Assembly: GCA_945898095.1 (NCBI GenBank)
Contig: CAMDHE010000001.1
Location: 61,512-125,511 of the forward strand
Length of the DNA: 64,000 nucleotides
DNA from: Roseateles toxinivorans
Lineage (GTDB): Bacteria > Pseudomonadota > Gammaproteobacteria > Burkholderiales > Burkholderiaceae_C
Direction: 5' to 3'
The stretch's first letter is position 1. Each line of letters opens with the position of its first letter. Under the pieces are notes generated by a model. The model saw nothing but the letters and a program-made list of their open reading frames with translations, did no database searches and had not been told where the DNA came from. A program made the translations under genes and the position numbers. Positions 17,175-36,126 of the stretch are shown piece after piece.

Positions 17175-17176
17175 GC

Positions 17177-19258: not shown

Positions 19259-19309
19259 CGCTGCGTTCACCCGGTTGACCCCCGTCGTCGCAATTTTGCA
19301 ACCCAAGGG

Positions 19310-19441: not shown

Positions 19442-22219
19442 ATGAATAGTTCAATCAAGCTGCGCAAACCAGCCCGTCGCCATCAGGCGCTTCAGATCCA
19501 TCCGATCGCGGCCGCTTGCGCCGTGCTCTTGTTCGCAGCCGGCGCTGCCCAGGCGCAGCAAGCCGCCAATGTGCTGGAGACGGTGTCCGTCTCGGGCATT
19601 GCGCGCGGTATCGAGACATCGATTGCAACCAAGCGCAATTCTGACTCGATCGTCGAGGCGATTTCGGCCGAGGACATCGGCAAGTTGCCTGACGTCAGCA
19701 TTGCCGAGTCGCTGGCTCGTCTGCCAGGTCTGGCGGGACAACGGGTGGCTGGCCGCGCTCAGGTGATCCAGATCCGCGGCTTGTCGCCGGACTTTGCCGG
19801 GACCTTGCTCAATGGTCGCTCGCAGGTCACCACCGGTGATAACCGTTCGGTCGAGTTCGATCAATTCCCGTCCGAGCTGATCAATTCGGCCGTCGTCTAC
19901 AAGACCGGCGATGCATCGCTGGTGGGCCAGGGGCTGTCGGGCACCATCGACATGCGGACCTTGCGTCCGCTCTCCGTTGACGGCCGCAAGGTGGTGCTGA
20001 ACGCGCGCCTGGAATCCAATTCCAACGGTTCCGTCAATTCCAATACCGACAGCAACGGCAAGCGCTTCAGTGCTTCCTATGTCGACCAGTTCGCTGACCG
20101 CACAATCGGCATCGCCTTGGGTTTTGCACACCTCGATTCGCCTGGCCAGGAACTGCATTACAAGGCCTGGGGTTTCGGCAAGGAAAATCCTGATTGCCTG
20201 GCCCATATCGCCGACTGGGGTTGCGGCCCGATGATCGGGCTGCCCACGACAGCCACCACCTTGAACGGTTTTGAAGCCACGGCGATCTCGCGCAAGCAGT
20301 CCCGCGACGGCCTGATGGGCGTGTTCGAGTACAAGCCGAGCAAGGATCTGCACAGCACGCTGGATCTGTACTACTCGAAGTTCAAGAAAGAAGAAACGAT
20401 GCGCGGCCTGATGGGCAGCATCGGTGACGGTTGGGGTGGCCCTACTTCGGGCGCCACGTTCACCAATGTCGTGACCACGCCAGTCGGCGGCTCGACCAGC
20501 CTGGTCACTTCGGCGACAGTGGCCGGTGTGCCGAATATGGTGGTTCGCAACGACCTCAACACCCGTGACGACGAGCTCAAATCGCTGGGCTGGAATACCA
20601 AGGCCAAGCTGGCTGGTGGCTGGACCGGTGTGGCTGACCTGAGCTATTCCAGCGCTTCGCGCAAGGAAAACGTCATCGAGACCTATGCCGGTATCGGCAG
20701 GACCTTGACCACGTTCAATATGAGCGTGCCGACCGGCTCGGGTTATCCCAGCCTGGTGCCCAACAACAGCTATTCCGACGCCAGCAAGGTCTTGCTGAGC
20801 GACCCGGGTGGCTGGGGTCATGATGGCCTGTGGAAAAAGCCGCAGATCAAGGACACGATCAAGGCCTTGCGTCTTGACGCGAAGAAGGACCTTGATGGTT
20901 TCTTCAGCTCGGTCGATCTCGGTGTCAATTTCGAGACGCGCCAGAAAGATCGCCAGATGAATGAGCTGGCGGCTGATCTGAAGAACGGCCGCACAGCGAT
21001 CGCCGTGCCAGCCGGTCTGCAGCAACCCGCCACCTCGCTGAGTTTCGCTGGCATACCCGGTGTGCTGTCCTACGACGTGATGGGCGCCTTGAACTCGCTG
21101 TACACCTTGAAAGCGCAGGCGGCTGACCAGATCATCAACCGCAATTACGAAGTCAGCGAAAAGGTCACCACGGCCTTTGCCAAGGTCGGCATCGATACCA
21201 AGCTCGGCTCGGTGCCGGTGCGCGGCAATGTCGGTCTGCAAGCGATCCATACCGATCAGAGTTCGCATGGCTGGTCCAAGCTCAGCGGGACTTTCTCCGA
21301 AGTGACTCGCGGCAGTTCCTACAACGATGTGTTGCCGAACTTGAACCTGAATTTCGAGCTCAGCGACGACCGTTATATCCGGCTGGGTTTGGCCAAGACG
21401 CTGGCACGCGGCCGCATGGACGATATGAAGGCCGGAGCTGACGTCAATATCACCAAGGCCACTTCGGGCGTGACGACCTGGGGTGGTAGCGGCGGTAACC
21501 CAGAGCTGCAGCCCTGGCGTGCAACTTCGTTTGACCTGTCCTTCGAGAAATACCTGGGCAAGCGCAGTTATGTGGCGGCAGCGATCTTTTACAAGGATCT
21601 CGAAAGCTATATCTACACCAAGAAGATCGAGACCAACTTCAGCGCATTCCCGAACACCAGCAACCCTGCGCTGGCGACTCCAGTCAATCCGCTGGCCATG
21701 TACACCACACCGGCCAATGGCAATGGCGGCTATGTCCGCGGGGTCGAGCTGAGCAGCTCAATGGATGCCGCTCGCTGGGTGCCGGCGCTCAGCGGTTTTG
21801 GAGTTTCAGCTAGTGCGACCTATACCGAGAGCAATGTCCATCCCAATGGACCAGGAACCTCGGAGAAGCTGCCGGGTCTGTCGGGTGTCACGGCCAACCT
21901 GACCGCTTATTACGAGAAGAACGGGTTCTCCACCCGGATCAGCGAGCGCTATCGTTCGGCCTTCCGCGGCGAAATCAACGGGCTGCACAATGCGCGTGAA
22001 TTCACCGAAATCCTGGCCGATCGCCAAGTCGATGCGCAAGTCTCCTATGAGTTCCAGCAAGGTGCTTACAAGGGCTTGTCGCTGCTGCTGCAAATCAACA
22101 ACCTGACCGATTCGCCTTATGCGACCAGGCTGGGTAATGGCCTGGGTGATGCAATCGCCCCTGGCGAGTACAACAAGTTCGGTCGTCAAGTGCTGTTTGG
22201 TATCGGTTACAAGATGTAA
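19442..22219 (+). CDS. TonB-dependent receptor for glucan oligosaccharides
   Basis: An outer-membrane TonB-dependent receptor of 925 aa. A long signal peptide ends at AAQAQQ. A TonB-box-like stretch, LETVSVSG, follows, then the plug domain (EDIGKLPDVSIAESLARLPG, IQIRGLSPDFAGTLLNGR) and a large barrel ending in GIGYKM. This plug pattern is that of the sugar-linked TonB receptors seen in Caulobacter and Xanthomonas carbohydrate loci, which pair no SusD protein. A Shine-Dalgarno AGGAGAC lies before the ATG. It heads the plus-strand glycosidase operon and would take up glucan fragments across the outer membrane. Cargo is inferred from neighbours. Confidence 0.93.
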   Translation: MNSSIKLRKPARRHQALQIHPIAAACAVLLFAAGAAQAQQAANVLETVSVSGIARGIETSIATKRNSDSIVEAISAEDIGKLPDVSIAESLARLPGLAGQRVAGRAQVIQIRGLSPDFAGTLLNGRSQVTTGDNRSVEFDQFPSELINSAVVYKTGDASLVGQGLSGTIDMRTLRPLSVDGRKVVLNARLESNSNGSVNSNTDSNGKRFSASYVDQFADRTIGIALGFAHLDSPGQELHYKAWGFGKENPDCLAHIADWGCGPMIGLPTTATTLNGFEATAISRKQSRDGLMGVFEYKPSKDLHSTLDLYYSKFKKEETMRGLMGSIGDGWGGPTSGATFTNVVTTPVGGSTSLVTSATVAGVPNMVVRNDLNTRDDELKSLGWNTKAKLAGGWTGVADLSYSSASRKENVIETYAGIGRTLTTFNMSVPTGSGYPSLVPNNSYSDASKVLLSDPGGWGHDGLWKKPQIKDTIKALRLDAKKDLDGFFSSVDLGVNFETRQKDRQMNELAADLKNGRTAIAVPAGLQQPATSLSFAGIPGVLSYDVMGALNSLYTLKAQAADQIINRNYEVSEKVTTAFAKVGIDTKLGSVPVRGNVGLQAIHTDQSSHGWSKLSGTFSEVTRGSSYNDVLPNLNLNFELSDDRYIRLGLAKTLARGRMDDMKAGADVNITKATSGVTTWGGSGGNPELQPWRATSFDLSFEKYLGKRSYVAAAIFYKDLESYIYTKKIETNFSAFPNTSNPALATPVNPLAMYTTPANGNGGYVRGVELSSSMDAARWVPALSGFGVSASATYTESNVHPNGPGTSEKLPGLSGVTANLTAYYEKNGFSTRISERYRSAFRGEINGLHNAREFTEILADRQVDAQVSYEFQQGAYKGLSLLLQINNLTDSPYATRLGNGLGDAIAPGEYNKFGRQVLFGIGYKM

Positions 22220-22233
22220 TTATTGCCATGCCG

Positions 22234-22266
22234 ACACCCCTTGCGGCCGCAGGCGGCAAGGGGTGT
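22234..22266 (+). terminator. Hairpin terminator after the TonB-dependent receptor
   Basis: ACACCCCTTGC and GCAAGGGGTGT form a perfect 11-bp stem with an 11-nt loop, 15 bp after the receptor stop codon and followed by a moderately T-rich stretch. It would act as an attenuator, lowering expression of the glycosidases relative to the receptor. Confidence 0.7.
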
Positions 22267-22374
22267 TTCCGTTTTCGAAATCAATACAAGCCTCACCAAC
22301 AGGATTTGCAAAAATTGAAACAGCCAGGCTTGTCGGCCCCTACAGTACAAGCCTCATTGCAGGAAGGCGTAACG

Positions 22375-24942
22375 GTGTCGGCACGGATTTCATTGTGGTC
22401 TGAGGGTTTCAGAGATTTTCGTCCTCAACTGCCCTTTCTGCGGCTTGCGGCCGGAGCCTGCATGGCCCTGCTACTCGTTGCCGGTGCCAATGGTGCGCCG
22501 CACAGCCAGGCAGATTGGCCGCAGATCCACAGCGCGATCCGCCAGGATCCGGCGCAGGAATCCCGCATTGCCGCCATCGTGGCGCAAATGACGCTGGCGC
22601 AGAAGATCGGGCAGATGACCCAGCCCGAGATCAAGTTCATTACGCCGGATGAGGTCAAGCGCTTTTATATCGGCTCGGTGCTCAACGGCGGCGGTTCCTG
22701 GCCAGGCAATGACAAGCAGGCTTCAGCCAGCGATTGGTTGCAGCTCGCCGATGCTTATTGGGCTGCATCGATGGCCACCGATGCGGCGGTCAAGCTGCCG
22801 CTGATTTGGGGCACCGACGCGGTCCATGGCCACAACAATGTGCGCGGTGCCACGCTCTTTCCGCACAATATAGGCCTTGGCGCGACGGCCGATGTCAAGC
22901 TGGTCGAAGCGATCGGCGCGGCCACGGCCAAGGCGGTTCGGGCCACCGGCATCCAATGGGTTTTTGCGCCGACGCTGGCGGTCGCCCAGGACATGAACTG
23001 GGGCCGCAGCTACGAGAGCTATTCCGCCGATCCGGCGCTGGTGGCGCGGCTCGGCGCCGCCCATGTGCGCGGCCTGCAGGGGCAGTTCAAGGATGACGCC
23101 AATGTTGTCGCCACGGCCAAGCATTTTTTGGGCGATGGGGGCACCGACCAGGGCCGCGACCAGGGCGTCACGCTGGCGACCCGAGAGCAAATGATAGCCA
23201 TCCATTTGCAGGGCTATGTCGGTGCGATTGGCGCCGGCGCCCAGACGGTGATGGCTTCGTTCAACAGCTGGAACGATGTCAAGCAGGGCATCAATTACGG
23301 CAAGATGCATGGCAGCCGCGCGCTGCTGACCGATGTGCTGAAGACAGCGATCGGTTTCGACGGCTTCGTCGTCTCCGACTGGAACGGCATCGGCCAGATT
23401 CCTGGCTGCAGCAATGCCAGCTGCGCCCAGGCGATCAATGCCGGCATCGACATGGTGATGGTGCCCGAGGAATGGCGCGCCTTCATCAAGAACACGATGT
23501 TGCAGGTCGAGCGCGGAGAAATCCCGATCGCGCGCATCGACGATGCGGTCAGCCGCATCCTGCGCGTCAAGCTGCGCGCCGGCTTGTTCGAGCAGTCGCC
23601 GGGCAAGAATGCCTGGGCCGGCCGGGCCGATGCGCTGCAGGATCGGGCGCTGGCGCGCCGTGCGGTGCGCCAATCGCTGGTGCTGCTGAAGAACCAGCAG
23701 CAGGCGCTGCCGCTGCGTGCCGGCCAGCGTTTGCTGGTTGTCGGCAACAGTGCCGACAGCCTTGAAAATCAGAGTGGCGGCTGGTCGCGGACCTGGCAGG
23801 GCAACGACAACAAGAACAGCGATTTCCCCGCCGGCCAGACGATCCTGTCCGCTGTTCGCGCGGCTGCGGGCGAGGGCCAAGTCAGCTTCAGCAAGAGCGC
23901 TGCCGGCGTCGTCCTCAAGGCTTTCGACGCGGTGATTGCCGTGATCGGCGAGACGCCTTATGCCGAGGGCAATGGCGATATTCCAGCCTCGGGGACCTTG
24001 CGCCATTCGAGCCGCTATCCGCAAGACCTGGCGCTGCTCGACGCGGTGTCGGGCAAGGGCCCGAAGGTGATCACGGTTTTCGTCGCGGGCCGGCCGCTTT
24101 ACACCAATGATTTGTTGAACCGTTCCGATGCTTTTGTGATGGCCTGGTTGCCCGGCACCGAGGGCGGCGGCGTGGCCGATCTGCTGTTCGCCAGCCCCGC
24201 CGGGGCTGACTTCAGCGGGCGCCTGCCCTTCGCCTGGCCGCAGGCCGCTTGCGCGGGTGGCACGCCCTTGTTTGCTGCTGGTTATGGCCTGGCTTATGGC
24301 GCGGCTGGCGAAGTGGGCCGCCTTGCCGAGCAGATACCGTCGGGCGGCTGTGGCGCGAGAAACGAGATACAGATCTTCAGGCAAGCGGCGGTACCGCCCT
24401 ATACCTTCGAAGTCGGCAGCGCGGTGGGCCGCTGGCAGGGGCGATCGATTCCGGACGATCCGAATCAGCGCCTGGCCCTGCCGGCCCAAGGCGCGCCGGA
24501 CATCGAGGTTTCGACCGTACAGATCCATACCCAGCAGGACGCCAAACGAATCGCCTGGTCGGGCCCGGCAAGGTTTTCGGCCTGGGGCTTGCAAAAAACC
24601 GATCTGAGCGCCTTCCCTGAGGCCGCGCTATTGTTCGACAGTCGGGTCGAGCAGCCGCCACAGGCCCCGGTGACGCTGACGATGATCTGCGGCAGTTCTT
24701 GCCAGGGCTCGCTCGACCTCACCGATCTGTTCAAGCGCATGGCTTCGCAGCCGCCACGCACCATCAAGATTCCGCTGGCCTGTTTTGCGGCGCGCGGCGT
24801 CTTGTTGAACCAGGTCGAAGTGCCTTGGCGCATCACCACGACCGGCCCGTTCATCGCCGCTTTTGCCAATATCCGTATCGCCGCCGGCGCCGCTCGCGAC
24901 GCCGACGCCTTGCCCTGCAATTCATTCCCCATCAGCCCATGA
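22375..24942 (+). CDS. GH3 exo-beta-glucosidase/glucanase (ExoP-like)
   Basis: A family 3 glycoside hydrolase, about 855 aa if translation starts at the GTG preceded by AGGAAGG; the ORF track start lies in the terminator. A signal sequence (LAAGACMALLLVAGANG) indicates export. The catalytic nucleophile Asp is in GFVVSDWNG and the substrate-binding KHFLGDGGTDQG motif is present. After the (alpha/beta)6 domain a further C-terminal beta-rich domain of about 180 aa follows, as in ExoP-type exo-1,3/1,4-beta-glucanases. The stop codon overlaps the GH1 start (ATGA). It would release glucose from beta-glucan chain ends in the periplasm. Confidence 0.93.
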   Translation: MSARISLWSEGFRDFRPQLPFLRLAAGACMALLLVAGANGAPHSQADWPQIHSAIRQDPAQESRIAAIVAQMTLAQKIGQMTQPEIKFITPDEVKRFYIGSVLNGGGSWPGNDKQASASDWLQLADAYWAASMATDAAVKLPLIWGTDAVHGHNNVRGATLFPHNIGLGATADVKLVEAIGAATAKAVRATGIQWVFAPTLAVAQDMNWGRSYESYSADPALVARLGAAHVRGLQGQFKDDANVVATAKHFLGDGGTDQGRDQGVTLATREQMIAIHLQGYVGAIGAGAQTVMASFNSWNDVKQGINYGKMHGSRALLTDVLKTAIGFDGFVVSDWNGIGQIPGCSNASCAQAINAGIDMVMVPEEWRAFIKNTMLQVERGEIPIARIDDAVSRILRVKLRAGLFEQSPGKNAWAGRADALQDRALARRAVRQSLVLLKNQQQALPLRAGQRLLVVGNSADSLENQSGGWSRTWQGNDNKNSDFPAGQTILSAVRAAAGEGQVSFSKSAAGVVLKAFDAVIAVIGETPYAEGNGDIPASGTLRHSSRYPQDLALLDAVSGKGPKVITVFVAGRPLYTNDLLNRSDAFVMAWLPGTEGGGVADLLFASPAGADFSGRLPFAWPQAACAGGTPLFAAGYGLAYGAAGEVGRLAEQIPSGGCGARNEIQIFRQAAVPPYTFEVGSAVGRWQGRSIPDDPNQRLALPAQGAPDIEVSTVQIHTQQDAKRIAWSGPARFSAWGLQKTDLSAFPEAALLFDSRVEQPPQAPVTLTMICGSSCQGSLDLTDLFKRMASQPPRTIKIPLACFAARGVLLNQVEVPWRITTTGPFIAAFANIRIAAGAARDADALPCNSFPISP

Positions 24943-26303
24943 CAGCCAGCCACTTGCCCGCCATCAGCCGCAGCCAATTTCCCGCCGATTTCCGCTGGGG
25001 CTGCTCAACCTCCTCCTACCAGATCGAGGGTGCTGCCTTCGAGGATGGCCGCGGCGAATCGATCTGGGATCGCTTTTGCGCCACGCCTGGCCAGATCCGT
25101 GACGGCAGCAGCGGTGCGGTCGCCTGCGACCATTACCACCGCTGGCCCGAAGACCTCGATCTGGCGCAAAGCCTCGGCGTCAATGCCTACCGCTTCTCGA
25201 TCGCCTGGCCGCGCATCCTGCCGAGCGGCCGCGGCGCGATCAATCAAAAAGGCCTGGATTTCTATTCGCGTCTGGTCGACGGCATGCTCGAGCGCGGGCT
25301 GCAGCCCTGGGCGACGCTGTACCACTGGGACCTGCCGCAGGCTTTGCAGGAGCAGGGCGGCTGGGCCAGCCGTGACACCGTCGATGCCTTTGTCGAATAC
25401 ACCGATGTGGTGACGAGATCGCTGGGCGACCGCGTCAAGCATTGGATCACCCACAACGAGCCCTGGTGCACCGCCTTTCTGGGCAACCATGGTGGCGGCC
25501 ATGCGCCGGGCTTGAACAGCTACAAGACGGCCTTGCAGGTCTGCCACCATCTGCTGCTTTCGCATGGCATGGCGCTGCCGGTCATCCGCCGCAATGTGCC
25601 CGAAGCCCAGGCCGGTATCACCCTGAGCCTGCACCCGATCGTTGCGGCCACCGACAGCCCGGCCGATGTCGCGGCGGCCTTGCGCCATGACGGCATGCGC
25701 AACCGCTGGTTCCTGGATCCTTTGTTCGGCCGTGGTTACCCGGCTGATGTGCTGCCCTTGCTGGGTGCCGACGCCCCCGATATGCATCACAGTGACCTGG
25801 CGCTGATCGCCACGCCCTGCGATTTTCTCGGCGTCAATTACTACTTTCCGGAGCGGGTTGGCGACGCGGCGGGCGACGGGCAGGAACATGGGCCGATCGC
25901 CACAACCGTGGTCTCGACCCCCGATGTCGAGCGCACTGCGTTCGGCTGGGAGGTCGCACCCCAGGGCATGGTCAGCTTGCTGCAGCGGGTTCAGCGCGAC
26001 TATGCGCCGGCACAGATCTATCTGACCGAAAACGGTTCGACCTATGACGATGTGGTGAGCCCGGACGGCAGCATCGATGACCCGCAGCGGCGCAGCTATC
26101 TGGCCCGCCATCTGCTGGCGGCCCGCCAGGCCGTCGAGGCCGGTGTGCCGCTGAAAGGCTATTTCGCCTGGAGCCTGCTCGACAACTTCGAATGGGCCGA
26201 AGGCTATCTGCGCCGCTTCGGCCTGACCTATGTCGATTACACGACCCAGCAGCGCCGGCTCAAAGCCAGCGGGATCTGGTACCGCGAGTTCTTGCACCGC
26301 TGA
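24939..26303 (+). CDS. GH1 beta-glucosidase, second copy
   Basis: A family 1 beta-glucosidase of 454 aa, without a signal peptide. The ORF track start is 80 codons upstream inside the GH3 gene; the ATG at 24939 overlaps the GH3 stop as ATGA. N-terminal FRWGCSTSSYQIEGA, acid/base Glu in THNEPWCTAF and nucleophile Glu in YLTENGSTY are intact. It is a paralogue of the 14057-15421 enzyme and ends in the same LKASGIWYREFLHR type of tail. A cytoplasmic role on imported di- and trisaccharides is expected. Confidence 0.95.
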   Translation: MTASHLPAISRSQFPADFRWGCSTSSYQIEGAAFEDGRGESIWDRFCATPGQIRDGSSGAVACDHYHRWPEDLDLAQSLGVNAYRFSIAWPRILPSGRGAINQKGLDFYSRLVDGMLERGLQPWATLYHWDLPQALQEQGGWASRDTVDAFVEYTDVVTRSLGDRVKHWITHNEPWCTAFLGNHGGGHAPGLNSYKTALQVCHHLLLSHGMALPVIRRNVPEAQAGITLSLHPIVAATDSPADVAAALRHDGMRNRWFLDPLFGRGYPADVLPLLGADAPDMHHSDLALIATPCDFLGVNYYFPERVGDAAGDGQEHGPIATTVVSTPDVERTAFGWEVAPQGMVSLLQRVQRDYAPAQIYLTENGSTYDDVVSPDGSIDDPQRRSYLARHLLAARQAVEAGVPLKGYFAWSLLDNFEWAEGYLRRFGLTYVDYTTQQRRLKASGIWYREFLHR

Positions 26304-26309
26304 CCGGCC

Positions 26310-26565
26310 ATGGCTCGATTGCTGAAACTCGCGGCCATCGACCTGGCCTTGCTGGCCGGCGCGGTGCAGGCTCGGGCCCCCAGGGCTGAAGCGATCCCTG
26401 GGTGGACCGCAGGTGGAGAATCGGCAGCCGTAAAGACGCTGGCCCGAGCCCACCGCAGGGCGGCCTTGCCTGGGTCGACAACGCGGAGGCATTTGGCGAG
26501 CAGGCACCGGCCGTGGCGTCAAGGCTTATGTCGAGGCGCAGCGTGCGTCCTCGGCGCCGCCGTAA
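26310..26565 (+). pseudogene. Relic of a sugar ABC binding-protein gene
   Basis: A short decayed gene between GH1 and the first halogenase homologue. It starts with a signal-peptide-like MARLLKLAAIDLALLAGAVQA, then GWTAGGESAAVKTLARAH. After a frame change the sequence continues as GGLAWVDNAEAFGEQAPAVA. Joined, this resembles the mature N-terminus of glucose/mannose-type binding proteins (compare HWWTSGGEAKAAQSL in the intact gene at 9155-10423). A third frame gives GVKAYVEAQRASSAPP and a stop at 26563, possibly the old C-terminus. At least two frame changes and a large internal deletion are needed. The identification is mine from pattern only. Confidence 0.6.
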
Positions 26566-26592
26566 ACAGCCCTCGCGGGCTGCCCTTCTACC

Positions 26593-26614
26593 GCCCCGCC
26601 AGGAATGGCGGGGC
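26593..26614 (+). terminator. Hairpin just upstream of halogenase homologue 1
   Basis: GCCCCGCC and GGCGGGGC form a perfect 8-bp GC stem with loop AGGAAT, followed by TTCT and, 16 bp on, the ATG of the next gene. A second small hairpin (CAGCCC-TCGC-GGGCTG) lies at 26568-26583. It could be a terminator for the GH3-GH1 unit or a translational control element for the halogenase gene. Confidence 0.5.
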
Positions 26615-26629
26615 TTCTCGGGAATTCCT

Positions 26630-28147
26630 ATGAGCTTGCCTCCCCTCAAAAGAATCGTCATCGTCGGCGGCGGAACTGCCGGCTGGATGACGGCCGCGAT
26701 GCTGTCCAAGCTGTTGACGCCGACATACCAAGTGCGACTGATCGAGTCGGACGAGATCGGCATCATCGGCGTCGGTGAGGCCACCATCCCGCATATCCGC
26801 GCCTTCAATCTGGCCCTGGGTATCGACGAAGACGAGTTCGTTCGCGCCACTCAGGGCACCTTCAAGCTCGGCATCGAGTTCGTCAACTGGGGTGCGATCG
26901 GCGATCGCTATATCCATGGCTTCGGCAAGGTCGGCCAGGAACTCGATGGGATTTCTTTCCACCATTACTGGCTGCGCCTGCTCGGCGAAGGCAGCCGCCA
27001 GGCCGGCGACCTGAGTGAATACTCACTTAATACAATGGCTCCCAAACATGCGAAGTTCATGCGCGCGCGGCCCGATATGGCCGGCTCGCCGCTGGCCGAT
27101 CTGAACAGTGCCTTCCATTTCGACGCCAGCCTCTACGCGCGCTTTCTGCGCGGCTTTGCCGAGCAGCGCGGCGTGCAGCGCACCGAAGGCAAGATCGAGC
27201 AGGTGTTGCAGCGCGAGCCCGACGGCCATATCAGCGCCCTGCGCCTGGCCAGCGGCGAGCTGATCGAGGGCGATTTCTTCATCGACTGCTCGGGCATCCG
27301 CGCCTTGCTGATCGAGCAGACCTTGAAAACAGGCCATGAAGACTGGACCCATTGGCTGCCCTGCGACCGTGCTTATGCCGTGCCCTGCGCATCGGCCGGC
27401 CCTTTGCTGCCGATGACGCGCTCGACCGCCCATGGTTCTGGCTGGCAATGGCGGATTCCGCTGCAGCACCGTACCGGCAATGGTCATGTCTATTCGAGCC
27501 GCTTCATGGGCGACGATGAAGCCAAGGCCATTTTGCTGGCCAATCTCGACGGCGAACCGCTGGCCGAGCCGCGTCAGGTGAAGTTCGTCACCGGCCGGCG
27601 GCGCCAGTTCTGGAACGGCAATTGCGTCGCGATCGGCCTGTCGAGCGGCTTTCTTGAGCCGCTCGAGTCGACCAGCATCCACCTGATCCAGATGGGCATC
27701 ACAAGGCTGATGGCGATGTTCCCTCATGCCGGGCTCGACCAGGCCGACATCGACGAATACAACCGCCAGACCAGGTCCGAATACGAAAGCATCCGTGACT
27801 TCATCATCCTGCATTACAAGGCCACCGAGCGCAGCGATACGCCGTTCTGGAACTATTGCCGCACCATGTCCGTCCCCGAATCGCTGCAGCGCAAGATTGA
27901 TCTGTTCAGCAGCAACGCGCGCTTTTTCCGCGACGGCAACGAGCTGTTCACCGAACTGAGCTGGTTGCAGGTGCTGATCGGCCAGCGCATCCGCCCGCGC
28001 GGCTACCACCCCTTCGTCGACCACCGGCCGCGCGCCGAGGTTGAGGAATTCGTCAGCAATATTCGCGAGGTGATCCAGCGCTGCGTTGCGGTGATGCCGA
28101 CGCAAGCGGATTTCATCGCCGCCAATTGCACGGCCAAGCCGCTATGA
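26630..28147 (+). CDS. Flavin-dependent (tryptophan-type) halogenase homologue 1
   Basis: A 505-aa FAD-dependent halogenase-family protein. The FAD-binding motif is IVIVGGGTAGWM at the N-terminus. The halogenase hallmark W-x-W-x-I-P is present as GWQWRIPL. Lys79 in GTFKLGIEF and Glu346 in PLESTS fall at the same residue numbers as the catalytic Lys79 and Glu346 of PrnA. The ORF track start is too long; I use the ATG at 26630. Homologues of this type are known next to TonB receptors in Xanthomonas and Brevundimonas, where natural substrates are unclear. The stop codon overlaps the start of a paralogue (ATGA). No flavin reductase gene is nearby. Confidence 0.9.
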   Translation: MSLPPLKRIVIVGGGTAGWMTAAMLSKLLTPTYQVRLIESDEIGIIGVGEATIPHIRAFNLALGIDEDEFVRATQGTFKLGIEFVNWGAIGDRYIHGFGKVGQELDGISFHHYWLRLLGEGSRQAGDLSEYSLNTMAPKHAKFMRARPDMAGSPLADLNSAFHFDASLYARFLRGFAEQRGVQRTEGKIEQVLQREPDGHISALRLASGELIEGDFFIDCSGIRALLIEQTLKTGHEDWTHWLPCDRAYAVPCASAGPLLPMTRSTAHGSGWQWRIPLQHRTGNGHVYSSRFMGDDEAKAILLANLDGEPLAEPRQVKFVTGRRRQFWNGNCVAIGLSSGFLEPLESTSIHLIQMGITRLMAMFPHAGLDQADIDEYNRQTRSEYESIRDFIILHYKATERSDTPFWNYCRTMSVPESLQRKIDLFSSNARFFRDGNELFTELSWLQVLIGQRIRPRGYHPFVDHRPRAEVEEFVSNIREVIQRCVAVMPTQADFIAANCTAKPL

Positions 28148-29655
28148 CCCATCCGGCCGCGCTCAATATCGTCATCGTCGGAGGCGGCACGGCAGGCTGG
28201 ATGACGGCGGCCGCGCTGTCCAAACTGCTCGGCGATCAGTACCGGATCCAGCTGGTCGAATCGGACGAAATCGGCACCATCGGTGTGGGCGAAGCGACGA
28301 TTCCGAACATCAAGAACTTCAACGCGACCTTGGAAATCGACGAGGACGAGTTCATCCGCGCCACCCAGGGTACGTTCAAGCTGGGCATCGAGTTCGTTGA
28401 CTGGGGCGCCATCGGCGACCGCTATATCCACGGTTTCGGCAAGGTCGGGCAGGAATTCGATGCCCTGGCCTTTCACCATTACTGGCTGCGCCTGCGCCGG
28501 CAGGGGCTGGCCAGTGATCTGGGCGACTATTCGATCAACACGGTGGCGCCCTTGCAGGCCAAGTTCATGCGCCCGCGCCCCGAGATGGCCGGCTCGCCGC
28601 TCGCTGACATCGCCTATGCCTACCATTTCGATGCCAGCCTGTATGCGCGCTTTCTGCGCGACTATGCCCAAAAGCGCGGTGTGCTGCGCAGCGAAGGGCG
28701 GGTTGTCGAGGTGCTGCAGCGCGAGCCCGATGGGCATATCAGCGGTGTCAGGCTCGATGGCGGCGAATTGATCAGCGGTGATTTCTTCATCGACTGTTCA
28801 GGCATCCGTGCGCTGCTGATCGAACAGACCTTGCATTGTGGTTATGACGATTGGCGCCATTGGCTGCCCTGCGACCGCGCGATTGCCCTGCCTTGCGCCA
28901 GCGCCGGGCCCCTGTTGCCGATCACGCGCTCGACTGCGCGCAGCGCCGGTTGGCAATGGCGCATCCCGCTGCAGCACAGGATCGGCAACGGCCATGTCTA
29001 TTCCAGCCGCTTCATGGGCGACGAAGAAGCCGGCGCCATCCTGCTGGCCAACCTGGACGCCGAACCCTTGGCCGAGCCGCGCACGATCGCCTATGTACCC
29101 GGCAGGCGCAAGCAGTTCTGGAACCGCAACTGTGTCGCGATCGGACTGGCGGCCGGATTCTTCGAGCCGATCGAATCGACCAATATCCAGCTGATACAGA
29201 CCGCCCTGGCGCGGCTGATCGCCTTCTTTCCGCATGCCGGCATCGAGCCGGCCGATGTCGACGAGTACAACCGGCAGACCGAGTTCGAATATGAGCGCAT
29301 TCGCGACTTCATCATCCTGCATTACAAGGCGACCACCCGCGATGATTCGGCCTTCTGGAACTACTGCCGCGGGATGGACATCCCTGACACCCTGCAGCGC
29401 AAGATCGACCTCTATGCCAGCAACGGACGCATCTTCCGTGAGGGCGGCGAGTTGTTCGCCGAGCTGAGCTGGTTGCAGGTCATGCAGGGTCAGGGTATCG
29501 AGCCGAGGGGCTATCACCCCTTCGCCGACAAACTGCCGCAGCAAGACCTGCTTGAATTCATGGCCAATGTGAAGGATGTGATCAAGCGCTGCGTCAAGGT
29601 GATGCCGGATCAAGCTGATTTCATCAAGGAAAATTGCGCGGCGGGGCGGCCATGA
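28144..29655 (+). CDS. Flavin-dependent (tryptophan-type) halogenase homologue 2
   Basis: A 503-aa paralogue of the preceding gene, clearly from a duplication as most motifs are alike. It has FAD motif IVIVGGGTAGWM, Lys79 in GTFKLGIEF, GWQWRIPL, and Glu344 in PIESTN. ATG at 28144 overlaps the previous stop codon. Its own stop codon overlaps the next gene's ATG. Both copies keep the residues needed for halogenation chemistry. A role in modifying aromatic or glycan-linked molecules is speculation; the link to glucan use is only by gene position. Confidence 0.9.
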   Translation: MTHPAALNIVIVGGGTAGWMTAAALSKLLGDQYRIQLVESDEIGTIGVGEATIPNIKNFNATLEIDEDEFIRATQGTFKLGIEFVDWGAIGDRYIHGFGKVGQEFDALAFHHYWLRLRRQGLASDLGDYSINTVAPLQAKFMRPRPEMAGSPLADIAYAYHFDASLYARFLRDYAQKRGVLRSEGRVVEVLQREPDGHISGVRLDGGELISGDFFIDCSGIRALLIEQTLHCGYDDWRHWLPCDRAIALPCASAGPLLPITRSTARSAGWQWRIPLQHRIGNGHVYSSRFMGDEEAGAILLANLDAEPLAEPRTIAYVPGRRKQFWNRNCVAIGLAAGFFEPIESTNIQLIQTALARLIAFFPHAGIEPADVDEYNRQTEFEYERIRDFIILHYKATTRDDSAFWNYCRGMDIPDTLQRKIDLYASNGRIFREGGELFAELSWLQVMQGQGIEPRGYHPFADKLPQQDLLEFMANVKDVIKRCVKVMPDQADFIKENCAAGRP

Positions 29656-30500
29656 GGCCGGCGCTGAGGCTGCTGGCCTGCTGGCTGGCCCTGGTCGCGC
29701 CAGCGACTTTCGCTGCCGATGCAGCGCAGCCTTTCAACGTCGCCACCTACAACCTGCGGCTCAATCTCGTCGAGGATGGCGTCAACGCCTGGCCCAAGCG
29801 CAAGGAGGCGGTCAAGGCCTTGATCCGCTATCACGAGTTCGACATCTTCGGCACCCAGGAAGGCATGCCCTTGCAGATTGACGAGCTGGCCGAGATGTCC
29901 GAGTTTGCCTATGTCGGCGTTGGCCGCGATGACGGCAAGCGCGCCGGCGAACATGCGGCGATCTTTTTCCGCAAAGCGCGTTTCAAGGCCTTGAAACATG
30001 GCGACTTCTGGTTCAGCGAAACGCCAGACCGGCCTTCGAAGGGCTGGGATGGGCGTTGCTGCAACCGGCTGGCCAGCTGGGTGCAATTGCACGACCTGCT
30101 CAGCGGCCGCAGCTTCTATGTTTTCAGCTCGCATTTCGACCATGAGGGCGTGCAGGCCAGGCGCGAGTCGGCCAGGCTGCTGCTGCGCAAGATCGCCGAG
30201 ATCGCGGCCGGCTCACCGGTGATCAACCTGGGCGATTTCAATTCGACGCCCGAGACCGAGCAGATTCAGCTGATGCAAGCAGCGCAGCGCGATGCCTACC
30301 GGGTCAGCGAGACCGCGCCCTACGGCCCGGTCGGGACCTTCAATAATTTCAAGATCGACGCCGCCATGGCCGAGCGCATCGACTATGTCTTTCTCAGCCC
30401 CGGCTTTCGCGTGCTCAAGTACGCCGTGCTCAGTGACTCCTACGCCGGGCGCTTCCCTTCTGATCATCATCCGGTCGCGGTGCGGCTGAGCCTGGACTGA
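29652..30500 (+). CDS. Secreted endonuclease/exonuclease/phosphatase-family protein
   Basis: A 282-aa protein with a signal peptide (LLACWLALVAPATFAADA). The metal-dependent phosphodiesterase fold shows its motifs in order: VATYNLRL, the Glu in FGTQEGM, FSSHFDHEG, LGDFNSTPE and PSDHHPVAV. These are the catalytic residues of DNase I/sphingomyelinase-like enzymes. Proteins of this kind are often encoded in carbohydrate utilisation loci without a known function. It overlaps the halogenase gene by 4 nt, and the GH3 gene starts 1 nt after its stop codon, so it is in the operon. Confidence 0.88.
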   Translation: MRPALRLLACWLALVAPATFAADAAQPFNVATYNLRLNLVEDGVNAWPKRKEAVKALIRYHEFDIFGTQEGMPLQIDELAEMSEFAYVGVGRDDGKRAGEHAAIFFRKARFKALKHGDFWFSETPDRPSKGWDGRCCNRLASWVQLHDLLSGRSFYVFSSHFDHEGVQARRESARLLLRKIAEIAAGSPVINLGDFNSTPETEQIQLMQAAQRDAYRVSETAPYGPVGTFNNFKIDAAMAERIDYVFLSPGFRVLKYAVLSDSYAGRFPSDHHPVAVRLSLD

Positions 30501-30501
30501 G

Positions 30502-32751
30502 ATGTTCGTCTTGCACTCAAAACGGGCGCTTCATTGCGCTGCAGCCCTGCTGCTCTTGACCCTGACCCTGGGCGCCAAAGCACAGGCCTTGCAGGACAAG
30601 GTCGAGCGCCTGCTGCAGCAGATGACGGTCGAGGAAAAAATCGGCCAGCTGACCCAATATTCGGGCGACTGGCGAGCCACCGGCCCGGTGACTTTCAAGG
30701 GCAACCATGAAGAGGGCATCCGGGGTGGCCAGATCGGCGCGATGTTGAATGTGCTGGGTGCCAATTCGACCCGGGCCTACCAGCAGATCGCGATGCAGTC
30801 GCGCCTGAAGATCCCGCTGCTGTTCGGCCAGGACGTGATCCATGGCTACAAGACCACCTTCCCGATTCCGCTGGCCGAAGCCGCCAGTTTTGACCTCGAA
30901 GCGATCGAGCGTTCGGCGCGAATTGCCGCCACCGAAGCTGCCGCCAGCGGCGTCCACTGGACCTTCGCGCCGATGGTCGACATCGCCCGCGATCCGCGCT
31001 GGGGCCGGGTGATGGAAGGCGCTGGCGAGGACAGCTGGCTGGGGTCGAAGATCGCCTATGCCCGTGTGAAGGGATTCCAGGGGCGCCAGCTCGGCGACAC
31101 CGATGCGGTGATGGCCACAGTCAAGCATTTCGCCGCCTATGGCGCTGCGGTTGCCGGACGCGATTACAACTCGGTCGACATGAGCGAGCGGATGCTCTGG
31201 GAAACCTATCTGCCGCCGTTCAAGGCAGCGCTCGACGCGGGTGCTGCGACCTTCATGAATGCCTTCAACGATTTGAACGGCATTCCGGCCAGCGGCAGCC
31301 AATACCTGCAGCGCGAGATCCTCAAAGGTCGCTGGGGCTTCAGCGGCTTTGTCGTCTCCGACTGGGGTTCGATCGGCGAGATGGTCCCGCATGGCTATGC
31401 CAAGGACGCCAGGGGCGCGGCGCTGGCTGCAATCAAGGCCGGCAGCGACATGGACATGGAGAGCAACGCCTACCGCAACCACCTCGGGCCCTTGATCGCT
31501 GACGGCCTGGTGCCGGCAACGCTGCTCGACGATGCGGTGCGCCGGATCCTGCGCAAGAAGTTCGAGCTCGGCCTGTTCGACGATCCCTATCGCTTCAGCG
31601 ATGCCAAGCGCGAGTTGGCGATGTTGAACCAGCCCGCGCACCGCCAGGCGGCACGCGCTATGGCGGCCAAAAGCATCGTGCTGCTGAAGAACAAGCCGCG
31701 CATCCTGCCCTTGAGCGCCAGCGGCAAGACGATTGCCTTCATCGGCCCCCTGGTCAAGGCCGTCGAAGACAACCTGGGCGCCTGGTCGGTGAAGCTGCCC
31801 GATGTTGACTATTCGAAGTTCATCGTCTCGCAATGGGACGGTGTGAAAAACCGTCTCGGCCCGGGCAGCAAATTGCTCTACGCCAAAGGCTGCGACATCG
31901 AGGGCGAACGGCGCGACGGCTTCAAGGAAGCGGTAGCCGTGGCGCTGCAGGCCGATGTCGTGTTGGTCAGCGTTGGCGAAAGCGCCGGCATGAGCGGCGA
32001 GGCCAAGAGCCGCGCCAGGATCGGCCTGCCCGGCGTGCAGGAAGATCTGATCAAGGCCCTGCATGCCACCGGCAAGCCGATCGTCGTGCTGATCAATGCC
32101 GGCCGGCCGCTGATCTTCAACTGGACTGCCGAGCATGCGCAGGCGATTCTCTACACCTGGTGGCTGGGCAGCGAGGCTGGCAACGCCATCGCCGATGTGC
32201 TGTTCGGCGCGCACAACCCTTCGGCGCGTCTGCCGATCAGCTTCCCGCGTGCGGAAGGGCAGATTCCGATCTATTACAACCATTTCAATACCGGCCGTCC
32301 GGTAGCGGCTGACACGCAGGAAGCCTTCAAATCCGGCTATATCGACGTGCAGAATTCGCCGCAATATCCCTTCGGTTTCGGCCTCAGCTACAGCGACTTC
32401 GAATATACCGATTTGAAGCAAGACCGGCAAAAAATTGGCGGCCAGGACAAGCTCACCGTTTCACTCAAGGTCAGCAACAAGGGCCAACTTGCCGCCGATG
32501 AATTGGTGCAGCTTTATCTGCGCGATCGGGTCGCTTCGGTGGTGCGGCCGGTCAAGGAATTGCGCGGTTTTCGGCGCATCCATCTGCAGCCGGGCCAGAC
32601 CCGCGAGCTCAGCTTTGTGATCGAACGCGAACAGCTGTCATTCTTCAACGAGCGCCTGCAATGGGCGGCCGAACCCGGCGAGTTTGACCTGATGATCGGT
32701 GCGAGTTCAGCCGACATCAGGCTGCGCAGCAGCTTCGAGCTCACTGAATGA
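30502..32751 (+). CDS. GH3 periplasmic beta-glucosidase (BglX-like)
   Basis: A family 3 beta-glucosidase of 749 aa with a signal peptide (ALLLLTLTLGAKAQA). N-terminal MTVEEKIGQLTQ, substrate-binding KHFAAYGAAVAGRDYN and the nucleophile Asp in GFVVSDWGSIGE are intact. The second alpha/beta domain is followed by a fibronectin type III-like C-terminus (VSLKVSNKGQLAADELVQLYL). The whole resembles E. coli BglX in length and order. Its last codons overlap the GH2 gene start. It likely trims beta-linked glucose from oligosaccharides in the periplasm. It is more distant from the ExoP-like GH3 upstream, so the two should have different preferences. Confidence 0.95.
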   Translation: MFVLHSKRALHCAAALLLLTLTLGAKAQALQDKVERLLQQMTVEEKIGQLTQYSGDWRATGPVTFKGNHEEGIRGGQIGAMLNVLGANSTRAYQQIAMQSRLKIPLLFGQDVIHGYKTTFPIPLAEAASFDLEAIERSARIAATEAAASGVHWTFAPMVDIARDPRWGRVMEGAGEDSWLGSKIAYARVKGFQGRQLGDTDAVMATVKHFAAYGAAVAGRDYNSVDMSERMLWETYLPPFKAALDAGAATFMNAFNDLNGIPASGSQYLQREILKGRWGFSGFVVSDWGSIGEMVPHGYAKDARGAALAAIKAGSDMDMESNAYRNHLGPLIADGLVPATLLDDAVRRILRKKFELGLFDDPYRFSDAKRELAMLNQPAHRQAARAMAAKSIVLLKNKPRILPLSASGKTIAFIGPLVKAVEDNLGAWSVKLPDVDYSKFIVSQWDGVKNRLGPGSKLLYAKGCDIEGERRDGFKEAVAVALQADVVLVSVGESAGMSGEAKSRARIGLPGVQEDLIKALHATGKPIVVLINAGRPLIFNWTAEHAQAILYTWWLGSEAGNAIADVLFGAHNPSARLPISFPRAEGQIPIYYNHFNTGRPVAADTQEAFKSGYIDVQNSPQYPFGFGLSYSDFEYTDLKQDRQKIGGQDKLTVSLKVSNKGQLAADELVQLYLRDRVASVVRPVKELRGFRRIHLQPGQTRELSFVIEREQLSFFNERLQWAAEPGEFDLMIGASSADIRLRSSFELTE

Positions 32752-32783
32752 GCTACCGAATGAGCTACCAAATGAGCTACCGC
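32748..32783 (+). repeat. Three tandem 12-bp repeats at a start codon
   Basis: ATGAGCTACCGA, ATGAGCTACCAA and ATGAGCTACCGC follow each other without gaps, each with an in-frame ATG (MSYR-MSYQ-MSYR). The first ATG also overlaps the upstream stop codon. A slip in copy number would change the number of start codons without changing frame. Confidence 0.85.
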
Positions 32784-34619
32784 ATTTTGCGCTCGTTGAT
32801 GCTCTTGCTGGCGCTGCTCGTCCTGCGGCCCTGCGAAGCGCTGGAACAGCCTTTGTTGACCAATCTGGCGAACCGCCAGACGATCTCGCTGAACGGTGCC
32901 TGGCAGGCCATCGTCGACCCTTATGAGGCCGGCTATTACAACTATCGGCGCGAGCCCTATGACCGGAAAACGCAGCGATCAAACTCGGCCTTTTACAGCA
33001 ACCATCATGCGACGGACAAGGCGGAGCTGGTCGAATATGACTTCGATAAATCGCCGACGCTGAATGTGCCCGGCGACTGGAATTCGCAAAGCGAAAAGCT
33101 CTTTTACTACGAGGGCAATGTCTGGTTGAAGCGCAGCTTTGACTTCAGTCCCAGCCAGCAAGGCGGGCGGGTATTCATCCATTTCGGCGCCGTCAGCCAG
33201 CGCGCCGAGGTCTACTTGAACGGCACCAAGCTCGGGGTTCATGACGGGGGTTTCACGCCCTTCAATTTCGAGGTCACGTCCTGGCTCCAACCGAAGGGGA
33301 ATTTCCTCGTCGTCAAGGTCGACAACATCCGGCGCGCCGAAGCCGTGCCGACCAGCAGCACCGACTGGTGGAACTACGGCGGCATCACCCGCGATGTCAC
33401 GCTGATCGAAGAACGCAAAACCTTTGTCGAAGACCATGTCCTGCAGTTGAAGCCGGGGACGCTGCAGACGCTGGCCGGCGCCATCCGTTTGAATGGCGCA
33501 GCCGGCGGCGAGCGGGTGACGGTCAGCATCCCCGAACTGCATCTCGAGAGGGTCGTCAGCGTTGATCGCGCCGGCCTGGCCAGTTACGAAATCGAAGCGC
33601 CGGGCCTGAGCCTCTGGTCGCCGGCCAGACCCAAGCTCTACGAGGTGGTCGTCACGCTCGGTGCGCAAGCTTTGCGTGACGCGATCGGCTTTCGCAGCAT
33701 CGCAACGCGCGGCGCCGAGATTCTGCTCAACGGGCAGCCGATTTTTCTGCGCGGCATCTCGATTCACGAAGAAAACGCGCTGCAAGGCCGGCGTGCCTAC
33801 AGCGAGGCCGATGCGCTGCAGGCCTTGAGCTGGGCCAAAGAGCTCGGCTGCAACTATGTGCGCTTGGCCCATTACCCGCACAACGAAGCGATGCTGCGGC
33901 TTGCCGACCGAATGGGCTTGATGGTCTGGGAGGAAATCCCGGTCTACTGGACCATCGCCTTCAGCAATCCCGCCACCTTGGCCAATGCCAGCGAACAGCT
34001 GGCGGCCATGATCCGGCGCGACCGCAACCGCGCCTCGGTGATCATCTGGTCGGTGGCGAATGAAACGCCGCCGGGTGCGGCGCGCAATGCCTTTCTGGCC
34101 CACCTGATCGATCAGACCCGCAGACAGGATCCGGGCCGGTTGGTCAGCGCGGCGCTCGAAACCCATCAGGAAGGCGATGTGACGGTCGTCTCAGACCCGA
34201 TCGGCGAGTTGCTGGACATCGTCGCCTTCAATCAATACCGTGGCTGGTATGGCGGCAGCCTTGATGATGCGCCACAGGCGCGCTGGGAGATTCGCTCTGA
34301 CAAGCCGGTGCTGGTGTCGGAATTCGGCGGCGGCGCGTTGCAGGGCCTGCATGGCCCGCGCGAGCAGCGCTGGACCGAGGAATACCAAGCCTATCTGTAC
34401 CAGCAGAACCTGGCGATGCTGGAAAAAATCCCGAATCTGCGCGGCCTGAGCCCCTGGATTCTGGCCGACTTCCGCTCACCAAGGCGGGTCTTGCCCGGCA
34501 TCCAGGATGGCTACAACCGCAAGGGCCTGATCTCCAACCAGGGCATCAAGAAGCAGGCGTTTTTTACGCTGCAGGACTTCTATCGAAAGATCGCGGCGCG
34601 CGGCTCGCAAGCCGAATAG
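32748..34619 (+). CDS. GH2-family glycoside hydrolase
   Basis: A family 2 glycosidase of 623 aa (beta-galactosidase, beta-glucuronidase and relatives). A signal-like segment (LRSLMLLLALLVLRPCEA) follows the MSYR repeats. Domain order: sugar-binding jelly roll (about 40-220, WLKRSFDF, AEVYLNGTKLGVHDGGFTPF), Ig-like domain, then TIM barrel with NYVRLAHYPHNE, acid/base Glu in IIWSVANETPPG and nucleophile Glu in KPVLVSEFGGGALQG. The catalytic pair is intact. Its presence suggests the target glycan has a side sugar beyond glucose. The specific sugar cannot be given from sequence. Confidence 0.92.
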   Translation: MSYRMSYQMSYRILRSLMLLLALLVLRPCEALEQPLLTNLANRQTISLNGAWQAIVDPYEAGYYNYRREPYDRKTQRSNSAFYSNHHATDKAELVEYDFDKSPTLNVPGDWNSQSEKLFYYEGNVWLKRSFDFSPSQQGGRVFIHFGAVSQRAEVYLNGTKLGVHDGGFTPFNFEVTSWLQPKGNFLVVKVDNIRRAEAVPTSSTDWWNYGGITRDVTLIEERKTFVEDHVLQLKPGTLQTLAGAIRLNGAAGGERVTVSIPELHLERVVSVDRAGLASYEIEAPGLSLWSPARPKLYEVVVTLGAQALRDAIGFRSIATRGAEILLNGQPIFLRGISIHEENALQGRRAYSEADALQALSWAKELGCNYVRLAHYPHNEAMLRLADRMGLMVWEEIPVYWTIAFSNPATLANASEQLAAMIRRDRNRASVIIWSVANETPPGAARNAFLAHLIDQTRRQDPGRLVSAALETHQEGDVTVVSDPIGELLDIVAFNQYRGWYGGSLDDAPQARWEIRSDKPVLVSEFGGGALQGLHGPREQRWTEEYQAYLYQQNLAMLEKIPNLRGLSPWILADFRSPRRVLPGIQDGYNRKGLISNQGIKKQAFFTLQDFYRKIAARGSQAE

Positions 34620-34656
34620 AAGTCCCTTGACCAACCCATCTCGACAGCAACTCTGT

Positions 34657-36126
34657 ATGACCAAACCCTTGTTCCTGCGCCACTTATTTCGCGGCCTGCC
34701 GGCCATCCTGGTGCTGGCCGCTGGTTGCGGCTCGGGCGGATCCTCTTCGGCCGGTGCCGGCGATCCGGTCAGCGGCCCGCAAGTGCAGGCCTGGGTGACC
34801 AGCGCCGACAAGACGCTGCTGCTGGCCCGCGTGGCCGACCCGGTTTTCACCGAGCTGCAGCCGGTGGCTTTGACGATTGATGTCGATGCCAGCCAGCGCT
34901 TCCAGACTATGGCCGGCTTCGGCGCGGCGATCACCGATGCCTCGGCCTGGTTGATCCAGAACCGCATGAGCGAGCCGCAGCGCGATGCCTTGCTGAAGGA
35001 GTTGTTCGGCCGCGGGCCCGATGGCGTCGGCTTTGATTTCGCCCGCCTGACGATCGCTGCTTCCGACTATTCGCTAAGCCATTACAGCTTCAACGATCTG
35101 CCTGCCGGCCAGACCGACATGGCGCTGGCGGGCTTTTCGATCGACCCGCTGCGTGCTGCGACGCTGCCGGTCGTCAAGCGCGCGCTGGCGGTGAATCCGC
35201 AGCTGCAGTTGATGGCTTCGCCCTGGAGCGCGCCGGCCTGGATGAAATCCAGCGGCAGCATGATCAAGGGCAGCCTGAAGCCCGAGATGTACGGCGTTTA
35301 TGCCGCCTATCTGGGGCGCTATCTGGATGCGATGGCCGCCGAGGGCGTGCCGATCTTTGCCTTGACCTTGCAGAATGAGCCGGATTTCGAGCCCGGGGAC
35401 TACCCCGGCATGCGCGTCGATGCGGCTGCCAGGGCCGCGTTGATCGGCCAGCATCTGGGCCCCTTGCTGGCCAGCCGCAACGTGAAGACCCGCTTGTTCG
35501 ACTGGGACCATAACTGGGACCAGCCGCAATCGCCGCTGGCGGTGCTCGGCGATCCGATCGCAAGGCCTTTTGTTGCCGGTGTGGCCTGGCATTGCTATGC
35601 CGGCGATGTCTCGGCCCAGAGCCAGGTGCATGACGCTTACCCCGACAAGGAAACCTGGTTCACCGAATGCGCCGGTGGCGATTGGGCGCCGAGCTGGGCG
35701 GTCAGCTTGCCCTGGATGATGCATAACCTGGTCATCGGCAGCACCAGGGCCTGGGCCAAGGGCGTGCTGATGTGGAACCTGGCGCTGGACGAAAACCATG
35801 GGCCGCATCTCGGCGGTTGCAAGGACTGCCGCGGCGTTGTCACGATCGATTCGAAAAGCGGCGCGGTGACCCGCAATCTCGAGTATTACGGTCTGGCCCA
35901 TGCCAGCAAGTTCGTGCGTCAGGGCGCACAGCGTATTGCTTCGTCGGCCGCCCAGGACGGGGTCGAATCGGTCGCCTTCCGCAATGCCGATGACGGCTCG
36001 ATCGCCCTGATCGTCAGCAATAACGAAGCGCAGCCGCGCAGCTTTGCGGTGCGTTTTGCCGGTCGGCAGTTCAAGCAGCAATTACCTCCGCAGAGCGTCG
36101 CCACCTATACCTGGACGGCACCATGA
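34657..36126 (+). CDS. GH30 glucanase lipoprotein (endo-beta-1,6-glucanase-like)
   Basis: A family 30 hydrolase, about 489 aa. The lipobox ILVLAAGC marks a lipoprotein, probably facing the periplasm or cell surface. RFQTMAGFGAAITDASAW begins the barrel. The acid/base Glu is in LTLQNEPDF and the nucleophile in WFTECAGGDW. A C-terminal beta domain ends the chain. Bacterial relatives include glucosylceramidases and endo-beta-1,6-glucanases; with GH16 and GH3 nearby the latter is likelier. I chose ATG 34657; the ORF track uses TTG 34627, ten codons earlier. The stop codon overlaps the next gene (ATGA). Confidence 0.9.
   Translation: MTKPLFLRHLFRGLPAILVLAAGCGSGGSSSAGAGDPVSGPQVQAWVTSADKTLLLARVADPVFTELQPVALTIDVDASQRFQTMAGFGAAITDASAWLIQNRMSEPQRDALLKELFGRGPDGVGFDFARLTIAASDYSLSHYSFNDLPAGQTDMALAGFSIDPLRAATLPVVKRALAVNPQLQLMASPWSAPAWMKSSGSMIKGSLKPEMYGVYAAYLGRYLDAMAAEGVPIFALTLQNEPDFEPGDYPGMRVDAAARAALIGQHLGPLLASRNVKTRLFDWDHNWDQPQSPLAVLGDPIARPFVAGVAWHCYAGDVSAQSQVHDAYPDKETWFTECAGGDWAPSWAVSLPWMMHNLVIGSTRAWAKGVLMWNLALDENHGPHLGGCKDCRGVVTIDSKSGAVTRNLEYYGLAHASKFVRQGAQRIASSAAQDGVESVAFRNADDGSIALIVSNNEAQPRSFAVRFAGRQFKQQLPPQSVATYTWTAP

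Follow-up and report, generated by a model that had tools for sequence, protein, structure and literature searches.

Tandem BrvH/Xcc4156-type flavin-dependent halogenase homologs in a TonB receptor-headed glycan locus of Roseateles toxinivorans

What do two adjacent halogenase homologs do inside a sugar utilization locus? A 64,000-nucleotide stretch of Roseateles toxinivorans DNA (GCA_945898095.1, contig CAMDHE010000001.1, positions 61,512 to 125,511; hereafter, the window) encodes, among glycosidases, two paralogous flavin-dependent halogenase (FDH) homologs, here FDH1 and FDH2. Proteobacterial genomes frequently encode halogenases of the BrvH/Xcc4156 type, which have been studied as biocatalysts but whose natural substrates are unknown. 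We read FDH1 and FDH2 as recently duplicated, intact cytoplasmic halogenases of this type, located in a TonB beta-1,3/1,6-glucan operon as a receptor-linked accessory, and assign this reading a probability of roughly 0.6. The statistics presented here tie such halogenases to TonB sugar receptors, not to natural-product clusters or to a single glycan. This link makes the halogenation target a testable question, for which the receptor and the induced metabolome are the starting points.

Sequence, fold and origin of the halogenase pair

Both proteins match the Trp_halogenase profile PF04820 at full length (654.5 bits for FDH1 and 649.9 for FDH2, cut-off 21; profile positions 1-457 of 458) and are 72% identical to each other. 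They share the GGGTAG motif at residue 13, WQWRIP at 272 and 270, respectively, F-x-EP-x-ES at 341 and 339, and Lys79, that is, the complete motif set of flavin-dependent halogenases (GxGxxG, WxWxIP, Lys, and Glu). Lys79 and Glu346 of FDH1 align on the catalytic Lys and Glu of PrnA, and these two residues are kept in 140 of 154 family sequences, including both window copies. The HxF stacking motif is present as well (H96, F98). Comparison of the two genes by the NG86 method yielded dN of 0.21 and dS of 0.84 (dN/dS of about 0.25), which argues that both copies are maintained as proteins under purifying selection. The original prediction, made from the letters of the DNA, had described two apparently intact paralogs of 505 and 503 amino acids with the FAD motif, W-x-W-x-I-P, Lys79, and Glu346 or Glu344, the first matching the PrnA numbering, and is borne out on all these points.

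The AlphaFold2 model of FDH1 (mean pLDDT [predicted local distance difference test] of 90.3) retrieved, as the top Foldseek matches in the PDB, Xcc4156 (6y1w), 9luq, and BrvH (6frl), with TM (template modeling) scores of about 0.95 and 47-52% identity. The same three are the closest PDB sequences (all 1e-141 or better, compared with 1e-79 to 1e-86 for PrnA). Thus, sequence, fold (the latter from the predicted FDH1 model only), and a position in the tree nearest to 6y1w, 9luq, and 6frl place the pair with the BrvH/Xcc4156 type. Free-tryptophan halogenases are distinguished by a substrate-binding loop and a C-terminal Trp-binding motif (Trp4, YYEN) (PMC8269204). PrnA, RebH, and PyrH share with FDH1 the fold, the FAD motif, and the catalytic Lys and Glu, but are only about 33% identical to it, and their C-terminal motif lacks an aligned counterpart: the Trp-binding stretch of PrnA aligns with gaps, and there is no YYEN equivalent. 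A stretch that appears to lie near the position of this motif, ELF-x-E-x-SW-LQV-x-x-GQ, is largely kept in the group, with E438, F440, W445, V448, G451, and Q452 invariant among 17 sequences.

In the phylogenetic tree, FDH1, FDH2, and one same-family homolog (locus L035) form a clade with support of 98. On this phylogeny, the pair is a recent lineage duplication and not an old two-enzyme system. Another relative, L041, carries two FDHs in the corresponding locus, about 10 kb apart. BrvH of Brevundimonas sp. BAL3 resembles FDH1 in its K, E, FAD, and WxWxIP motifs (about 47% identity, TM of 0.93-0.94 by structure alignment) and likewise adjoins a second FDH, to which it is 42.7% identical (PMC5945002); however, it falls outside the main FDH clade, in which the window pair is found, and the window copies, at 72%, represent a much younger duplication. 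Xcc4156 of Xanthomonas campestris (49% identity, TM of 0.95) falls within the same large clade but groups with a different subclade. The Pseudoalteromonas sp. L11 tryptophan halogenase 9luq, the top PDB sequence hit (50-52% identity), also belongs to a subclade other than that of the window pair. The source genome encodes a third paralog, 63% identical, in an alpha-glucan locus, directly after another TonB receptor and beside GH13 and DUF6445 genes.

The receptor-headed gene cluster

The pair lies in a cluster on one strand (19442-38099) that is headed by a TIGR01782 TonB-dependent receptor (TBDR; gene start at 19442) and includes glycoside hydrolases (GH) of families GH3, GH1, GH3, GH2, and GH30, and an esterase (Table 1). 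The combination of a TonB receptor with glycan-processing genes in one locus is shared with the carbohydrate utilization (CUT) loci of Xanthomonas and Caulobacter (PMC1790865), whereas halogenases are unmentioned in the main text of that paper. The families represented (GH3, GH1, BglX-type GH3, GH2, GH30, and SASA esterase) point to a beta-1,3/1,6-glucan as the probable target of the cluster. The N-termini were judged by eye: none of FDH1, FDH2, and GH1 carries a recognizable signal peptide; the receptor, the endonuclease/exonuclease/phosphatase-family protein (EEP), the BglX-type GH3, and the esterase have signal-peptide-like N-termini; and that of GH30 is lipobox-like.

FDH1 and FDH2 are arranged as if co-transcribed with the glycosidases. 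ATGA overlaps, by which the original prediction had the genes coupled, are found between FDH1 and FDH2 and between FDH2 and the next gene, and also farther upstream, between the GH3 stop and the GH1 start (24939-24942), but not between GH1 and FDH1, which are separated by a 326-bp gap. Similarly, the predicted placement between GH1 and GH3 genes stands as far as the flanks are concerned, but the EEP gene separates FDH2 from the downstream GH3. The gap holds a decayed remnant of a gene for an ABC solute-binding protein (SBP). An SBP gene directly follows GH1, and is followed by permeases, in relatives L041, L045, L056, and L096; an FDH follows the ABC ATPase in L061, L088, and L096; and L035 has the order ATPase-FDH-GH30. 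Because of the remnant and these gene orders, the GH1-FDH1 junction has the appearance of a scar left by a deletion in an ancestral GH1-SBP-permeases-ATPase-FDH-GH30 arrangement. A potential RNA structure in the gap was unconvincing (z = -1.9) and was discarded, the decayed gene being the better explanation. The window yielded no matches in Rfam and tRNA scans. The promoter and terminator scan gave a signal no higher than that of shuffled sequences and, therefore, does not allow an operon boundary to be placed. A precursor peptide of the RiPP (ribosomally synthesized and post-translationally modified peptide) kind was considered as a substrate and rejected: the genes between 26630 and 38099 overlap or are at most about 7 bp apart, leaving no room.

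Table 1. Positions of the cluster genes in the window and of the cassettes and putative pseudo-halogenases in relatives
Feature	Location	Strand	Remarks
TonB-dependent receptor, TIGR01782 (TonB-Xanth-Caul)	19442-22219	+	585 bits, cut-off 310; DxxGW loop, W458
GH3 with Exop_C domain, exo-beta-1,3/1,6-glucosidase-like	22228-24942	+	Profile matches
GH1 beta-glucosidase	24939-26303	+	TIGR03356, 620 bits, cut-off 478.5; no signal peptide; start from sequence
Decayed, frameshifted 5' remnant of ABC solute-binding-protein (sugar-binding) gene	26304-26518	+	Frame-wise SBP matches
FDH1, flavin-dependent halogenase homolog, 505 aa	26630-28147	+	K79 codon 26864-26866; E346 codon 27665-27667
FDH2, paralog, 503 aa	28144-29655	+	K79 codon 28378-28380; E344 codon 29173-29175
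ATGA stop/start overlap, FDH1-FDH2	28144-28147	+	Sequence
ATGA stop/start overlap, FDH2-EEP gene	29652-29655	+	Sequence
Exported EEP-family protein	29652-30500	+	PF03372; signal-peptide-like N-terminus
GH3 beta-glucosidase, BglX type	30502-32751	+	NF011678, 810 bits, above cut-off; signal-peptide-like N-terminus
GH2, beta-glucuronidase-like	32748-34619	+	Profile matches
GH30, endo-beta-1,6-glucanase-like	34627-36126	+	PF02055; NF053856, 324 bits, under cut-off of 700; lipobox-like N-terminus
SASA-family carbohydrate esterase	36123-38099	+	PF03629; signal-peptide-like N-terminus
Cassette examples (relatives)	G429:C1:177169-181096; G384:C1:2200492-2204498; G324:C8:64713-68706; G035:C13:190141-194354		
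Putative pseudo-halogenases (relatives)	L067:7530-9011; L104:5787-7472; L106:4464-5945 and 7518-8984; L111:5834-7429; L112:5864-7429; L114:7544-8989; L116:5857-7428; L118:7523-9004; L119:7505-8992; L128:5953-7482; L133:7382-9004; L048:8986-10611; L107:56-1525		

Association with TonB receptors and candidate targets

Homologs are present in 33 of the 201 genomes of the window's taxonomic family, and a scan of public genomes detected at least 574 relatives. Among 100 loci picked by similarity to the window FDHs, so that the fraction describes only this subfamily, 109 FDH genes or arrays have a visible upstream neighbor, and in 74 of these cases the gene directly upstream encodes a TonB-type receptor (66 on the same strand); of all non-FDH genes in the same loci, about 10% encode receptors. 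Proximity to TonB receptors, with unclear natural substrates, had been noted in the original prediction and recurs in these loci. Within the window's family, a TIGR01782 receptor above the cut-off was detected in 31 of 33 FDH-positive genomes compared with 15 of 168 FDH-negative ones (Fisher p of about 1e-22), and the FDHs of the two FDH-positive genomes without such a receptor are only 31-34% identical. Distances between FDHs correlate with those between the adjacent receptors (r = 0.80, 50 pairs; none of 2000 permutations as high). This association as such is not described in the open literature searched, a scope that mostly leaves out subscription journals. Arrays of two to five FDH genes recur in Sphingomonas, Asticcacaulis, Cellvibrio, Aestuariibacter, and others, and BrvH itself belongs to an adjacent pair (PMC5945002); two such copies in one glycan locus are, accordingly, not the unusual arrangement that they had been taken for. 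The window pair is an ordinary representative of a widespread, functionally unexplained group of receptor-associated FDHs.

FDH loci carry either alpha-glucan (GH13, GH97, GH31, and pullulanase) or beta-glucan (GH1, GH3, GH16, and GH30) enzymes. Being found with both alike, the FDH follows the receptor and not a particular glycan. Furthermore, two beta-glucan loci of the same type, L238 and L239 (G031:C17 and G157:C1; order TBDR-GH1-SBP-permease-ATPase-GH30), contain no FDH and can serve as natural controls.

By homology to characterized relatives, a general cellular reductase would supply FADH2, which would react with O2 to a flavin hydroperoxide; the latter would oxidize halide, preferably bromide, to a hypohalous species that would move to Lys79 and, with the participation of Glu346 or Glu344, to an electron-rich aromatic ring seated in a wide pocket, open to the surface, that would not hold free tryptophan. 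The reaction of FADH2, O2, and halide to a hypohalous species that reaches the Lys is established for FDHs (PMC5945002, PMC7336383, PMC8269204). BrvH and Xcc4156, with open sites and unknown native substrates, accept indoles but not free Trp (PMC5945002, PMC7336383); bromide is preferred by BrvH (PMC5945002) and used exclusively by Xcc4156 (PMC7336383), and halogenation was shown for the former (PMC5945002) and is stated for the latter (PMC7336383). FDH1 and FDH2 would act, upon operon induction, as a dispensable accessory tied to the receptor and not to one glycan. Their probable target is an aromatic group carried by a peptide, a protein (the receptor itself being one candidate), or a cytoplasmic metabolite, and not a glycan. 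Glycan-linked aromatics, which the original prediction had listed with indoles and phenols as substrates to assay, are not favored, given the occurrence of FDHs in alpha-glucan loci, their lack of the signal peptides that most glycosidases of the cluster carry, and the FDH-free beta-glucan loci.

Several observations weigh against this interpretation. The FDH is not obligatory for glucan use because L238 and L239 lack it, no flavin reductase was detected among the cluster genes by profile search, and the catalytic competence of FDH1 and FDH2 is one that we infer only by homology. Co-inheritance of the operon alone could yield the correlation between FDH and receptor distances, and the control receptors without an FDH are small in number and group together on the tree.

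A specific form of the receptor-linked reading, which we consider rather unlikely, is that the FDHs halogenate or oxidize a receptor tryptophan, such as W458 in the DxxGW loop, before export. No invariant aromatic residue common to all FDH-adjacent receptors and absent elsewhere was found, and the conserved differences mostly track the receptor tree; the DxxGW loop alone stands out, with counterexamples, and several of the few positions that discriminate strongly fall within it. The loop Trp is present in all 45 main-clade FDH-adjacent receptors and missing from 14 of 19 same-clade receptors without an FDH found nearby (L215, where an FDH was seen in the locus, was left out of this count). An open active site might take peptides, as suggested for Xcc4156 (PMC7336383), and near receptors FDHs co-occur with genes for Cupin_8 and 2-oxoglutarate (2OG)-oxygenase-like DUF6445 proteins. 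However, three FDH-free receptors, L200 (L238), L202 (L239), and L185, retain the Trp, twelve more distant FDH-adjacent receptors lack it, and it could simply bind sugar. Moreover, the receptor tree shows only about five switches in FDH adjacency, so that few independent events underlie the contrast, and the motif was picked after inspection of the data. The loop Trp as an FDH target is a hypothesis, not a finding.

It is doubtful, but somewhat easier to envisage, that FDH1 and FDH2 act on small molecules, that is, indoles or phenols such as aglycones that a cytoplasmic GH1 would free from imported aryl-glucosides, for detoxification or signaling. Characterized relatives brominate indole and its derivatives, GH1 and the FDHs alike lack signal peptides, and the HxF motif is kept; yet the measured indole rates are low (2.5 mU/mg for BrvH, PMC5945002), such enzymes are also encoded in alpha-glucan loci, which would not be expected to yield an aglycone, and profile search of the cluster genes detected no biosynthetic or aromatic-degradation enzymes. 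That same negative result, along with neighbors consisting of the receptor, glycosidases, esterase, and EEP, and with a glycan gene context that recurs across Proteobacteria, renders membership in an unrecognized secondary-metabolite cluster extremely improbable, even though antibiotic biosynthesis is the task of many FDHs. In another reading, the pair would have given up halogenation in vivo and would work as flavin monooxygenases or oxidases, catalyzing hydroxylation or releasing peroxide or hypohalite, possibly without halide; weak profile similarity to two flavoenzymes with annotated roles in protein maturation, QhpG and LodB, and weak similarity to the peptidyl-Trp dihydroxylase structure 7ctq would fit. 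We regard this as quite improbable: every catalytic halogenase residue is kept, and the nearest structures include enzymes with demonstrated bromination.

Companion genes and putative pseudo-halogenases in relatives

The relatives contain a recurrent cassette, SapC (PF07277)-Cupin_8 (PF13621)-FDH-DUF6445 (PF20043), several instances of which are located near TonB receptors (Table 1). In the window's family, an FDH is found no more than 2 kb away from 16 of 29 Cupin_8 hits, 14 of 42 SapC hits, and 6 of 21 DUF6445 hits, with about 0.2% expected per hit; the window genome itself encodes no Cupin_8 and one SapC, located elsewhere. Four DUF6445 sequences (e.g., L034:5605-6321, minus strand) share an invariant H-x-D...H...R pattern resembling that of 2OG-Fe(II) oxygenases; the predicted structural model of DUF6445 was unusable (pLDDT of 45.5). 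DUF6445 genes are also found directly beside TIGR01782 receptors without an FDH (G008:C1:2219268, G037:C76:3577, G161:C36:58442, G175:C1:1711054, and G035:C1:1191141).

The 14 of 154 examined sequences that lack Lys79 and/or Glu346 are divergent members of multi-FDH arrays, usually encoded right behind a canonical FDH, and look like putative pseudo-enzymes. One could imagine, and we hold this to be distinctly unlikely, that TIGR01782 sugar receptors are served by O2-dependent cytoplasmic enzymes of their own (FDH, in many cases joined by SapC, Cupin_8, and DUF6445) that would halogenate or oxidize an aromatic residue of the receptor, the dead FDHs of the arrays serving as recognition or scaffold subunits and the window pair being the minimal form.

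Elsewhere in the window, upstream of the receptor gene and divergent from it (7410-19306, minus strand), are genes for two ABC sugar-transport systems, a sensor kinase, a response regulator, and a second GH1 that is 55% identical to the operon GH1. Of two further minus-strand genes, one (47467-50889) encodes a protein of 1140 amino acids that combines many TPR repeats with a CHAT domain at its C terminus, and the product of the other (2921-4027; 368 amino acids) matches 6-pyruvoyl-tetrahydropterin synthase in three separate places.

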